Origin: Thuidium tamariscinum
Lineage: Eukaryota > Streptophyta > Bryopsida > Hypnales > Thuidiaceae
Length of the DNA stretch: 64,000 bases
NCBI GenBank assembly: GCA_947034885.2
Contig: OX344753.2
Location: 10,106,001 to 10,170,000 of the forward strand
Reading direction: 5' to 3'
Each line of letters opens with the position of its first letter. Position 1 is the stretch's first letter. This document shows, piece after piece, positions 38,866-63,472 of this stretch. Below the pieces are notes generated by a model, which worked only from the letters and a program-made list of their open reading frames with translations, searched no databases and was not told the DNA's origin. The position numbers and the translations under genes are program-made.

Positions 38866-40529
38866 CACTACTAGAAAAACAGTGCCCAAATTAACAAAAC
38901 ATTAACAATTTTTTGTTAATTTGGATACTGTAACATCCATTTTCACAAATATTTGTTAACTGTGTCCAAATTAACAAAATTGTCTCATTTTTTTTGTTGA
39001 TTTGGATAGTACAATTACCACATCAACAAAATTTTGTTAATTTTTTTGAAATATTTTAAAATCTATTAAAATCTCTTGAAAAAGTTTAAAAATCTTCAAA
39101 ATCTTCAAAAACCTTTTAAAATCTTCAATATACAATGTAGATTTAAGAATAAAATAAGTACACATTCAATTTGGTGTTTATTAAAGTCATAAAACTTTAG
39201 GGTCAATTTTCACCTTGTAAAATTAATTTTTTCAATAAATTTTGGACTAATGAAAGTTGTAAAATTGATATATCTTTCACCTCCAACAGTTTTTTTGAGA
39301 TTTGGATCTTCCAATCAAAAGTTATGAACAAAAATCAAAGATGAGTAGAAATGGACATTCTTTTTTACATTTTTAAACACCTTCTCTGATTTTTGTCCAT
39401 ACCTTTTAATTGAAAGATCTAAATCTTAATTGGATTGTTGCAGATGAATGATATCTTCATCTTACAACTTTCATTAGGCCAAAGGTGTTTTTGAAAAGTT
39501 TATCTACTAGGATAAAATTGCCACTAAAGTCTACTGACTTTTGATGGGAAAAAAGTTAAAGAATAATATTAAAATTAAAATTATATGTCTCAATTCAAAA
39601 TTCAAATATAAGTATAATTTTAATCCTTTTGTTTCTTTATAATCCTTTGGAGTCTTAATTTTACAATGTAGATTTCGTTTTAAATTAAATTATCACAAAT
39701 CAGATTTTTGAAAAGTCAGCAGACTTTAGAGGCGATTCAGACCTAGTAAAAGAACTTTTTTGGAAAAACTTTGAAATAAAAGAAAGTTGAAAAATAAAGT
39801 CTTCTTTCACCTCCAACAATTTTTTTGAGATTTGGATCTTCTAATCAAAAGTTATGGACAAAAATCAGAGAGGGGTGGAAATGAACATTTATTTTAAAAA
39901 TTTTCAAACTCCCTCTCTGATTTTTGTCGATAAATTTTGATTGGAAGATCCAAATCTCAAAAAAATTGTTGGAGGTGAAAGAAGACTTTATTTCTCAACT
40001 TTCTTTAGTTCAAAGCTTTTCCAAAAAAGTTCTTTTAATAGGTCTGAATTTCCCCTAAAGTCTGCTGACTTTAAAAATGAATTGAAAAAACCCCGAAAGA
40101 ACTATCTAAATACATTTCTACTTCACCAACAATCACACATCTTGAGTGCTTGGTGCCTTAACAAGAGCCTTGGCCTCCAACCATGAGGTCGCGGGTTCAA
40201 ACCCCGATGGCCTCATGTCCTCAATAGTTGCCATGTGGCAATTGGATAGGTTGCCACGCGATTGATGGCCATGTGGCACCTCCCTAGAGGTCGGAAAAAT
40301 TTAAGGATTTTTAAAAATATATTTCAAAAAAAGGTCCAAATTAATCAAAAAAATCAACACTTTTTTGTTAGAAAATGAACGCTTTCTTGTTAAAATTTGA
40401 CATTTTTTGTTAAAAAATCAACACTTTTGTGTTCAAAAGTACCCAAATTAACACGTTCAAATCAACAAAAAAAATCAACACTTTTGTGTTAAGTTTTATT
40501 AATTTGGTCACTGTTTTTTTCTACTAGTG
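38866..40529. mobile_element. Non-autonomous CACTA-type transposon with serial long hairpins
   Basis: Termini are CACTACTAGAAAAACAGTG and its inverted match ending CTACTAGTG. The 3-bp duplication ATG lies at 38,863-38,865 and 40,530-40,532. Subterminal copies of AAATCAACACTTTTTTGTT and variants occur near both ends, like transposase-binding repeats of CACTA elements. Inside, two long inverted repeats follow one another: about 39,180-39,540 and 39,715-40,070, the second with arms of about 170 bp. A tRNA-like module lies at 40,141-40,210. No transposase frame exists in 1,664 bp. The uninterrupted target is readable at about 33,835 in GLDH intron 1. Confidence 0.9.
40141..40212 (+). other. tRNA-like module within the CACTA element
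   Basis: A B-box-like T arm, GCGGGTTCAAACCCCGA, lies at 40,191-40,207. It is preceded by a potential anticodon-arm stem (GGCCTC/GAGGTC) and a weak A box near 40,151. The loop does not give a sensible anticodon with U33, so this is not a working tRNA. A homologous module lies at the same relative place in the element at 60,803-63,469. Both are followed by GCCAYGTGGCA palindromes. Confidence 0.6.
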
Positions 40530-60802: not shown

Positions 60803-62699
60803 CACTAGTAGAAAATGACGTCCAAATCAACAGAAATATGTTGATTTTTTGTTGATTTGGGTACTGCAATGTCCAATTTCACATTTTTTTGTTAATGGTG
60901 ACACTCTTTTCTATTGATTTGGGCAGTAAGTGACAAAATCAACAGATTTTTGTTGAACATTTTTTGAACCTTCAAGAATCTTTTGGAATCTTTTGGAATC
61001 TTTTGGAATCTCTTAGAATCTCTTGAAATCTTCATTATACAATGTAGTTTTTTTTTAAAAAGTATTGACAATTTGGTGTTCATTAAAGTCAGCAGACTTT
61101 GGAGGTCATTTGCGCATAATAAATGAACATTTTTCAAAAAACTTTCAACTGAAAAAGTTGAAGAATTAAATCAACTTTCATCTCCAATAATTTTTTTTGA
61201 GATTTCAAATCTCCAATCAAAAGTTATAGACAAAATTCATAGAAGTGCTGGAAATTGTTTTTTTTATAAATTCAAAAGACTTTGGAGGCCGTTTTGGTAT
61301 AGTAAAAGGATTTTTTGGAAAAACCTTTAAATTAAAAGAAGTTGTAAATTCAAAAAAATTCATCTCCAATCATTTGTTTAGGGTTTAGATCCTCTAATCA
61401 AAAGTTGTGGATATAAATCAAAAAAATCTCAAAAATCTCAAAAGTAATGTTTTCCCAACCTTCCTTTGAACTTTGTCCACAACTTTTGAGTAAAAACTCA
61501 AAACCTCAAATGGGATCTTGGTGATGAAAGTTTGTTTTGAATAAATGATTGTTTTTTTGTTCAAAATGTTTTCAAATAAATTCTTCTACTATATATGCTA
61601 AAACAACCTCTAGTTTGCTACATTTACAAAGAAATAATTTCCAAAACCTATCTCCATTTTGTTCATAACTTTTGATTGGAGGATTAACATCTTCAAGGGA
61701 TTGTTATTATTTGAAGTTCAAAGTTCTTTCAAATTTAGTTATAAAATTTTGAAATGTCAATTCCAATCATCATTAACCCTTTAACACGTTGACATACAAA
61801 AAATGAATGCATTTTGGCCAAGCTCGATTACAACTTTTAAAATAACTATTTTTGGAATTCAATTTCAACTAGGATAGCAAAGCTTGACAAGTTTAGTTCC
61901 TGCTTCATTTTAAAGTTTTTAGAAATGTCATAAATTGAAAGATTTATTGAAATTGAAATCCAAATAACACAAAATGGTGTGCTTTTCATTCATATTTTTT
62001 TTAAATATTCTTATATATATTGTAATTGATATAATTTTATTTCTACCTTTACTTTTGAAAAATCAGAGTAATTTTGTTTTTCCTTCAAAATTATTGAGTA
62101 CATACAAAATAAATAGAAAATTTATTTTTTTATTAGCTTGAAATATTTGAAATTTATACATCAATGAAATAAAAGGATTAATTTGGTTTAATAGTCCAAT
62201 TTGACTTTAAGGTATTTGATGTGGCTATTTGGGGTGTAAGAAATAAAAAAATCAATTGAACATTTTAAAATATTTTTGAGACTTTCGAGTTTCCCAAAAA
62301 TTAATGAAAGTCACATATCATACATTAATTTTTCAATCATATGATCAAAAGTTTTAAGAGTTAGTGTGCCATAAAGCTACTCTTCCAACACACGTCTTGT
62401 CAAATTTGAAAGCAAAAAAATTGAAATTTTGTCCACATTGAGCTATCCAAAATATCATTATTTCCAAAAATTGCCATTTGGTCAATTAGAGGTTAATTTA
62501 GTGGTTATGTTCTATCTTTCAAAGAATTTATTTAAAAAATTGTATGTCAATTTGAAAACTTCCAAGTTTTTATTATATGTTAAAGAAATATGTTGAAAAT
62601 TTATACTTAAAACTTCAAAAGCATATTTCATATTCATGTTTGAAAGGAAAGTATATATAAATTTTTTTTAATAACTTCATCATTCACAAATTGGTGTTT

Positions 62700-63055
62700 T
62701 CAAAATTCAGTAGACTTCAGGATCCGTTTTCACATAGTAAATTAACATTTTTTTTGAAACTTTGAACTAAGAGAAGTTGGAAAATAAAGTTGTCTTTCAT
62801 CTCCAAAAATCCGTTTGCGATTTGGAGTTTTTAATAATAAGTTATGGACAAAATTCAGAGAGGGCCATTTTTTTTTCACTTTTTAACAACCTTTCTGAAT
62901 TTTGTCCATAACTTCTTATTAAAAACTCTAAATCGCAAACGGATTTTTGGAGATGAAAGACAACTTTATTTTCCAACTTTTCTTAGTTCAAAGTTCCAAG
63001 AAAAAAATTAATTTACTATGTGAAAATGGGCTCTGAAGTTTGCTGACTTCACAAG
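62700..63055. repeat. Long near-perfect inverted repeat inside the CACTA element
   Basis: Arms of about 170 bp meet at about 62,880. Matching landmarks are AATCCGTTTGCGATTTGGAG on the left and its near-complement around 62,930 on the right, and GAAAGACAACTTTATTTTCC opposite GGAAAATAAAGTTGTCTTTC. A transcript would fold into a long double strand, a likely siRNA source. Confidence 0.85.
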
Positions 63056-63119
63056 GCACATGCAACAAGAACATAGAAGTAGCTAAAACTGAATTTTTTT
63101 TCCCCAAAGACATGCAACC

Positions 63120-63195
63120 TCCTTGGTGGTTGAGCGGTCAAAGACCTTGGAATATTATTTCAAAGGTCTTGGGTTCGAATCCCCCCAGTGCCACC
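63120..63195 (+). other. tRNA-like module within the CACTA element
   Basis: Box A-like TGGTTGAGCGG (63,127-63,137) and box B GGTTCGAATCC (63,172-63,182) lie 45 bp apart, the right spacing for an RNA polymerase III internal promoter. A stem AAGACCTT/AAGGTCTT sits where the anticodon arm would be, but its loop is far too long, and the acceptor stem does not pair. So it is tRNA-derived, not a tRNA gene. D-arm features resemble Leu/Ser tRNAs. Confidence 0.65.
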
Positions 63196-63472
63196 CACTT
63201 GGTGCATTGCCTAGGTGGCTGCCCGTGTGGTGGGCTGCCACGTGGCAGTTTTGAATTTTTTCAAGAATAAATTGGAAAATTTTATAGAAAAAATTGTTGA
63301 AAATCAACACTTTTTAGTTCCTAATGAACATAAAATTGCTGATTTGGACGTCCAAATCAACACTTTTTTGCTATACAACGTCTGGGTCAACGCATCCTAA
63401 TCAACACAAAAATTAACAAACCAAATCAACACTTTTCTATCACTGTGGACGCTGAATTTTCTACTAGTGAAT

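Follow-up and report, generated by a model that had tools for sequence, protein, structure and literature searches.

A tRNA-derived segment with a conserved B box is fixed near the right end of a lineage of CACTA transposons in the moss Thuidium tamariscinum

A search of the host genome has revealed that a tRNA-derived module is fixed in a lineage of CACTA transposons: it was present in all 73 elements examined, always in one position and one orientation, across at least eight groups. The module is related to tRNA, with a B box that is conserved between the groups. The explanation that we favour, and to which we give an even chance, is that an ancient tRNA-derived segment was captured by the lineage, became fixed in it and has been kept mainly for its B box, as a putative binding site of TFIIIC. 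The earlier note on this DNA had proposed a transposon family with a fixed tRNA-derived promoter. Its interpretation is partly supported, because fixation (by the census), tRNA origin (by Rfam tRNA hits) and the B box were borne out and the conservation of the A box between groups was unsupported.

Two of these elements, e1 and e2, are located in the window (the whole stretch of 64,000 nucleotides that was analysed, C5:10106001-10170000 of the host genome). Both lie on the plus strand, e1 at 38866-40529 (1664 bp, TSD ATG/ATG) and e2 at 60803-63469 (2667 bp, TSD AAT/AAT), with exact 3-bp duplications and with the termini CACTA[G/C]TAGAAA on the left and TTTCTACTAGTG on the right. All stop-to-stop frames were of at most 81 aa in e1 and 92 aa in e2. 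The order inside both elements is long inverted repeats, tRNA-like module, palindromes, subterminal repeats and right terminus. Except for inverted repeats and palindromes, to which no strand is assigned, the features are on the plus strand. In e2 they comprise a long inverted repeat left of the module (62704-63049, self-complementarity about 85%), the tRNA-derived module (63120-63195) with the A box TGGTTGAGCGG (63127-63137) and the B box GGTTCGAATCC (63172-63182), the palindrome TGCCACGTGGCA with the G-box core CACGTG (63236-63247), a candidate Pol III terminator that is the first TTTT past the B box, 66 nt downstream (63249-63252), and the right end with AAATCAACACTTTT-type subterminal repeats (63285-63469), which recovered other groups when used as a query. 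The corresponding features of e1 are the inverted repeat (39704-40078, about 88%), the module (40142-40218), a degenerate A box TGGTGCCTTAA (40151-40161), the B box GGTTCAAACCC (40194-40204) and the palindrome TTGCCATGTGGCAA (40228-40241). Thus, the place near the right end that had been described as common to both modules was confirmed, with 297 bp in e2 and 335 bp in e1 from B box to right terminus. Both modules follow the right-hand inverted repeat and precede the palindromes that had also been described, of the CACGTGG type in e2 and the CATGTGG type in e1 (GCCACGTGGC / GCCATGTGGC).

The CACTA nature of the family was also seen outside the window. Strict 12-bp CACTA ends, inverted and on both sides, were found in 15 of 21 e1 and 11 of 16 e2 elements inspected, and a 3-bp TSD accompanied every one of these pairs of strict termini (15/15 and 11/11). 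Genes for PF02992 (Transposase_21-type) transposases are plentiful in the host genome (150 of 627 candidates scored), and a left-end search gave places only, no autonomous element with e1/e2-type ends being identified. The left 208 bp of e2 (60803-61010) were 90-98% identical at 39 other places (40 of 301 candidates scored), which include e2, e3 and e5 elements, whereas the non-e2 right ends were only 77-80% like e2, so that the two ends are asymmetrically conserved, the left more than the right. Long inverted repeats occupy much of e1 and e2 (39178-40078, 61083-61692 and 62704-63049) and would be expected to give long hairpin RNA if transcribed; at related loci they scored below threshold against plant microRNA families (MIR781 at most 55.2 bits, cut-off 88). 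The GC-rich stretch after the module (63196-63248 in e2, and also in the elements L012, L018 and L022) is made of GCCTAGGTGGC or CACGTGG-like units of variable copy number with G-box cores, and at least one of CACGTGG and CCACGTG was present in the 420 bp that follow the B box in 38 of 72 elements, against none of 52 upstream control stretches.

The tRNA-type B box that had been claimed for both elements was confirmed, since the only two exact matches to GGTTCRAAYCC on both strands of the 64-kb window were those at 63172-63182 and 40194-40204, one per element; with up to one mismatch there were eight matches, against 3.2 expected from shuffling. The B box of the window copy of e2 is atypical for its own group, in which all the other copies (16 of 17) start with GGAT. 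The claim of an A-box-like region 43-45 bp upstream stood for e2, where TGGTTGAGCGG fits TRGYNNARYGG fully at 45 nt from the B box, and not well for e1, where the window copy has a poor A box at 43 nt and the form found in most members of the group, TGGTGCCTTGG, carries two mismatches. The A-box consensus TRGYNNARYGG and the B-box consensus motifs used here are the standard ones; no plant source for the form GWTCRANNC was found in a text search of the literature.

Relatedness to tRNA was apparent in two modules only. The best Rfam match of the e2 module was tRNA over 63126-63186 (22.1 bits, E 0.0068 in a 91-base search), and the e5 copy L075 reached 23.8 bits over the full model, both below the cut-off of 29. 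With E values up to 10, no Rfam tRNA match was obtained in L067 (e3), L096 (e8), 12 loci and 9 e2 loci. A real tRNA gene was rejected because, besides these scores, ARAGORN found no tRNA gene and Rfam at gathering score gave no match in the window. The module is best described as a decayed tRNA-derived sequence that, to judge from these scores, is recognisable as such only in its better copies.

The host genome searched comprised 363 Mb in 19 contigs. By best match, the 73 elements fell into groups e1 (27 elements), e2 (17), e3 (12), e4 (3), e5 (10), e6 (2), e7 (1) and e8 (1); the census covers the elements that were opened, and its counts are lower bounds for the genome. As many as 52 of the 73 were either fetched via right-end searches or belong to a set that these searches listed in full. 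The other 21 were e1 elements, 20 fetched by the module and one in the window, and the e2 set consisted of 15 fetched by a module search, L036 obtained from a 30-letter pattern and one in the window. Searching with the e2 module returned 18 matches, which lie at 16 places, and the 30-letter e2 pattern, with up to three mismatches, matched at 17 places and its reversed control at none. The e2 right-end search (40 of 162 candidates scored) yielded 17 e2 elements, a set identical to the 17 of the module pattern, and 23 more distant elements, 14 of which were fetched, followed by L075. Further right-end searches with e5, e1 and e7 queries added elements (20 right ends fetched, then one), so that 35 elements were fetched through the right end (14 + 20 + 1).

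One element, L063, was considered as a module-less candidate and this was rejected, since a nested insertion of some 1.5 kb separates its module, on the upstream side, from the stretch that was read first; no frame longer than 123 aa was present within the 10 kb read. This 4.3-kb relative (L063/L095, C9:7736349-7740677) has its post-module GC-rich stretch split by the nested insertion, which has inverted ends. In L079 the B box is decayed, with three mismatches. Two pairs of neighbouring elements carry identical modules, L041 and L042 (C6:10.42 and 10.37 Mb) and, in opposite orientation, L061 and L062 (C8:7.70 and 7.71 Mb); these pairs are probably local duplications and not separate insertions.

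Independent insertions of a genomic SINE into the individual elements, which would have told against fixation, were not detected within the reach of DNA similarity, a search in which a diverged SINE could be missed, and neither a free SINE nor a tRNA source was found in the genome in this way. The nine genome matches of the L075 module all fell on e5 elements by position (eight of them opened), and the matches of the e2 pattern were the 17 e2 elements, with no free copy. Among 41 matches of the e1 module, 21 of which were opened as elements, 40 covered almost all of the 241-base query together with its element flank (scored for 40 of 76 candidates).

The B box differed by at most one mismatch from GGWTCRANNCC in 71 of 72 modules, its position being taken as the best within 14 nt, and the exact form GWTCRANNC was present in 60 of 73 modules, compared with 20 occurrences elsewhere on the plus strand in 226,799 bases of these loci. 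An offset control was carried out with one element from each of the eight groups, in which every offset was given the same best-within-14-nt freedom because the B-box position had been chosen so. The B box scored 0.847 and ranked second of 270 offsets, the first being its own one-base shift (-1, 0.864); the highest score at a distance of more than 12 nt was 0.727, and the mean was 0.611. When the majority rows of seven groups were compared, the B box again ranked second, of 110 windows (0.88 versus a mean of 0.51). The eight groups are not mutually independent, and three consist of one or two elements. By the same measure, 11-mers anchored at the right terminus gave 0.945 at the very end and values of 0.67-0.86 at nine further offsets that were sampled. 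The conservation of the B box thus roughly equals, and does not exceed, that of the subterminal repeats. These comparisons support a conservation of the B box between groups beyond that of its surroundings.

Conservation of both boxes across copies had been put forward in the earlier note as a check, and it was borne out for the B box and not, between groups, for the A box, whose scores between groups were at background both in the offset control (0.59-0.64) and in the majority rows (rank 49 of 110), which leaves its conservation between groups unsupported. Within groups, A-box columns agreed in 93-98%. The mean best A-box mismatch was 0.12 in e2, 0.6 in e5 and 1.7 to 3.0 in the other groups, compared to 3.4-3.8 in shuffles. 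Thus, e2 and e5 have an A box with none or one mismatch at the tRNA-like spacing of 43-45 nt from the B box, and it is weaker in the other groups (mostly two or more mismatches in e1, e3 and e4, up to three in e6 and e7). The best-fitting A box was located 43-45 nt upstream of the B box in 69 of 72 modules, a position that was itself chosen by fit.

The stretch between the boxes differs by about 40% between groups, as a result of either fast divergence or repeated replacement. In majority-row alignments it is still 0.47-0.70 identical; a gapped alignment of group representatives gave 0.727, against 0.718 for shuffled sequences, and since this pairwise scheme is lenient (shuffled about 0.72), the offset control and the comparison within and between groups were relied on instead. 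A conserved RNA structure was rejected: the consensus structure has three T-stem pairs only, no pair was changed on both sides, and folding of the inter-box stretch was mostly at background (mean z -0.8 to +0.8 in e1, e3, e4, e5 and e6), with e2, e7 and e8 as the only groups whose average hairpin is strong. In e1, e2 and e8, whole modules folded somewhat better than shuffled ones (mean z -2.3, -2.7 and -4.6, respectively), and single stretches of the window gave z values of -1.3 to -3.0. Because the B box is kept over the A box and sequence over structure, TFIIIC binding would fit better than a structured RNA product. The first TTTT after the B box was found at group medians of 66-138 nt (at 40308 in the window copy of e1). 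In 71 of 72 copies the inter-box stretch is free of TTTT, and the same was true for 0.85 of shuffles, so composition alone nearly predicts this absence, which is weak evidence for Pol III use.

Identities within and between groups were compared in e1, e2, e3 and e5, with L014, L023 and L059 omitted and any element without a segment skipped for that segment; within-group values come from single copies and between-group values from majority rows. The B box was 0.855-0.942 identical within groups and 0.865 between them, the inter-box stretch 0.80-0.94 and 0.60, and the hairpin arm 0.90-0.95 and 0.73, which gives a between/within divergence ratio of about 1.4x for the B box, about 3.3x for the inter-box stretch and 4x for the arm. 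Between groups, substitutions in the B box were 35 transitions and 7 transversions, and in the inter-box stretch 141 and 191, in pairs that are not independent. These values bear on the possibility that the module is a neutral relic, a tRNA or SINE fragment inherited from a common ancestor as a functionless passenger whose B box appears conserved by chance. The tRNA fold, the A box between groups and the inter-box stretch are largely lost, as expected of such a passenger, and the inter-box stretch differs clearly more than the arm within groups only in e3 and e5, decaying about like the arm in e1 and e2; within e2 the B box (0.855) even varies more than the arm (0.952) or the inter-box stretch (0.943). 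Nevertheless, the top place of the B box among 270 offsets under equal alignment freedom, its low divergence ratio and the prevalence of transitions among its changes make a neutral origin of this pattern somewhat unlikely. The same values may be understood if single copies decay and lineages have kept the B box.

Conservation of the B box could also reflect a site for a binder other than TFIIIC. The block GGGTTCRAACCC would then be recognised by an accessory factor of the transposase or by a host factor with a liking for near-palindromes, the tRNA origin being now irrelevant. The best-conserved window does extend a single base beyond the B box (offset -1), the GGG/CCC arms are retained, the adjoining subterminal repeats are similarly conserved and the A box is weak. 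However, many copies, for example in e1, e4, e5 and e7, read TTCAAA, a form in which the palindrome is broken, and the changes tolerated are those of a B box. We consider this reading unlikely. A recurrent capture, in which the groups swapped in different tRNA or SINE heads at one place and shared the B box through every source, would account for the near-shuffled inter-box similarity in gapped alignments, which is below that of the flanks, for left ends that are 90-98% like e2 at the 40 scored places (e2, e3 and e5 included) and for the hairpin of its own in e8, but is improbable given the residues shared outside the boxes (such as AGGT before the T arm in 7/7 majority rows), the common box spacing and the identity that the inter-box stretch retains in the majority rows.

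According to the favoured explanation, that of a captured segment kept mainly for its B box, an ancestor of the CACTA lineage would have captured a tRNA pseudogene or a SINE head between the right inverted repeat and the right subterminal repeats. The segment would then have become fixed in position and been passed down to at least eight groups; its tRNA fold and the greater part of its sequence would have been lost, and active lineages would have retained the B box, oriented toward the right terminus and presumably bound by TFIIIC. Transcription by Pol III typically starts about 12 nt before the A box. In the groups with a good A box (e2 and e5), Pol III may produce an RNA that terminates at the first T run and is about 135-210 nt long; for e2, a start about 12 nt before the A box and a stop at the TTTT at 63249 would give a transcript of about 135 nt. 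A cut-and-paste element needs no RNA template, so a benefit to the element would likely be exerted in cis, where TFIIIC or Pol III might keep the right end open or insulated for the transposase or set the nuclear position of the element. A bolder version, possible but doubtful on present sequence evidence, is that of a class II lineage living on the host Pol III, with CACTA elements that depend in cis on TFIIIC at a domesticated B box and Pol III factors that serve excision or integration.

Regarding known systems, the elements resemble plant non-autonomous CACTA (En/Spm) transposons in their CACTA...TAGTG termini, 3-bp TSD and subterminal repeats and in the lack of a transposase-length frame in e1 and e2, and differ from them by the tRNA-derived module beside the right subterminal repeats and by the long internal inverted repeats. 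In tRNA-derived plant SINEs, a tRNA-like head with A and B boxes precedes non-tRNA sequence; this head is shared with the module, which, unlike a SINE, is carried in a fixed position by a DNA transposon and has no free copies by DNA similarity. Extra-TFIIIC (ETC) sites have a B box without a Pol III gene structure, as is the case here, although the module lies in a mobile element and has a fitting A box in some groups. A literature text search that mostly left out subscription journals listed no DNA transposon in which a tRNA-derived Pol III module is fixed, and this argues only weakly for absence.

In retrotransposons, the retention of small-RNA promoters is usually explained by the role of the Pol III RNA as template. 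Since a cut-and-paste transposon has no need of a template, retention of the B box throughout the lineage suggests that mobile DNA puts TFIIIC to a different use, for which the opening of chromatin, insulation, placement in the nucleus or a regulatory RNA across the right terminus are candidates. With eight or more groups in a single genome, the inter-box stretch turned over and the putative TFIIIC site, the B box, retained, the lineage forms an unusual natural series, and it hints that these CACTA transposons use part of the host tRNA-gene machinery.

The closest parallels are found among LTR elements. Helenus is an LTR TRIM with a tRNA-like sequence and Ajax one with a 5S sequence, both have TSDs of 4-5 bp, and the Pol III RNA of these TRIMp3 elements is proposed as a template for reverse transcription (PMC10886601). 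They share with the present elements a non-autonomous nature and a fixed Pol III promoter sequence derived from a small RNA, and differ in being LTR retrotransposons, the carrier here being a cut-and-paste DNA transposon. The CACTA ends and 3-bp TSD place the present elements outside TRIMp3; a lineage dependent on Pol III, if real, would be the DNA-transposon counterpart of these LTR-based elements, without the role of the RNA as template. The Cassandra TRIM carries a 5S rRNA promoter in its LTR (PMC10853983), and is similarly a transposable element that has retained an internal Pol III promoter sequence, of the 5S type in an LTR element, unlike the tRNA-type module described here. LTR elements with fixed Pol III promoters (Cassandra, Helenus and Ajax) are therefore already known, and the odd part is the carrier, a CACTA DNA transposon that needs no template RNA.
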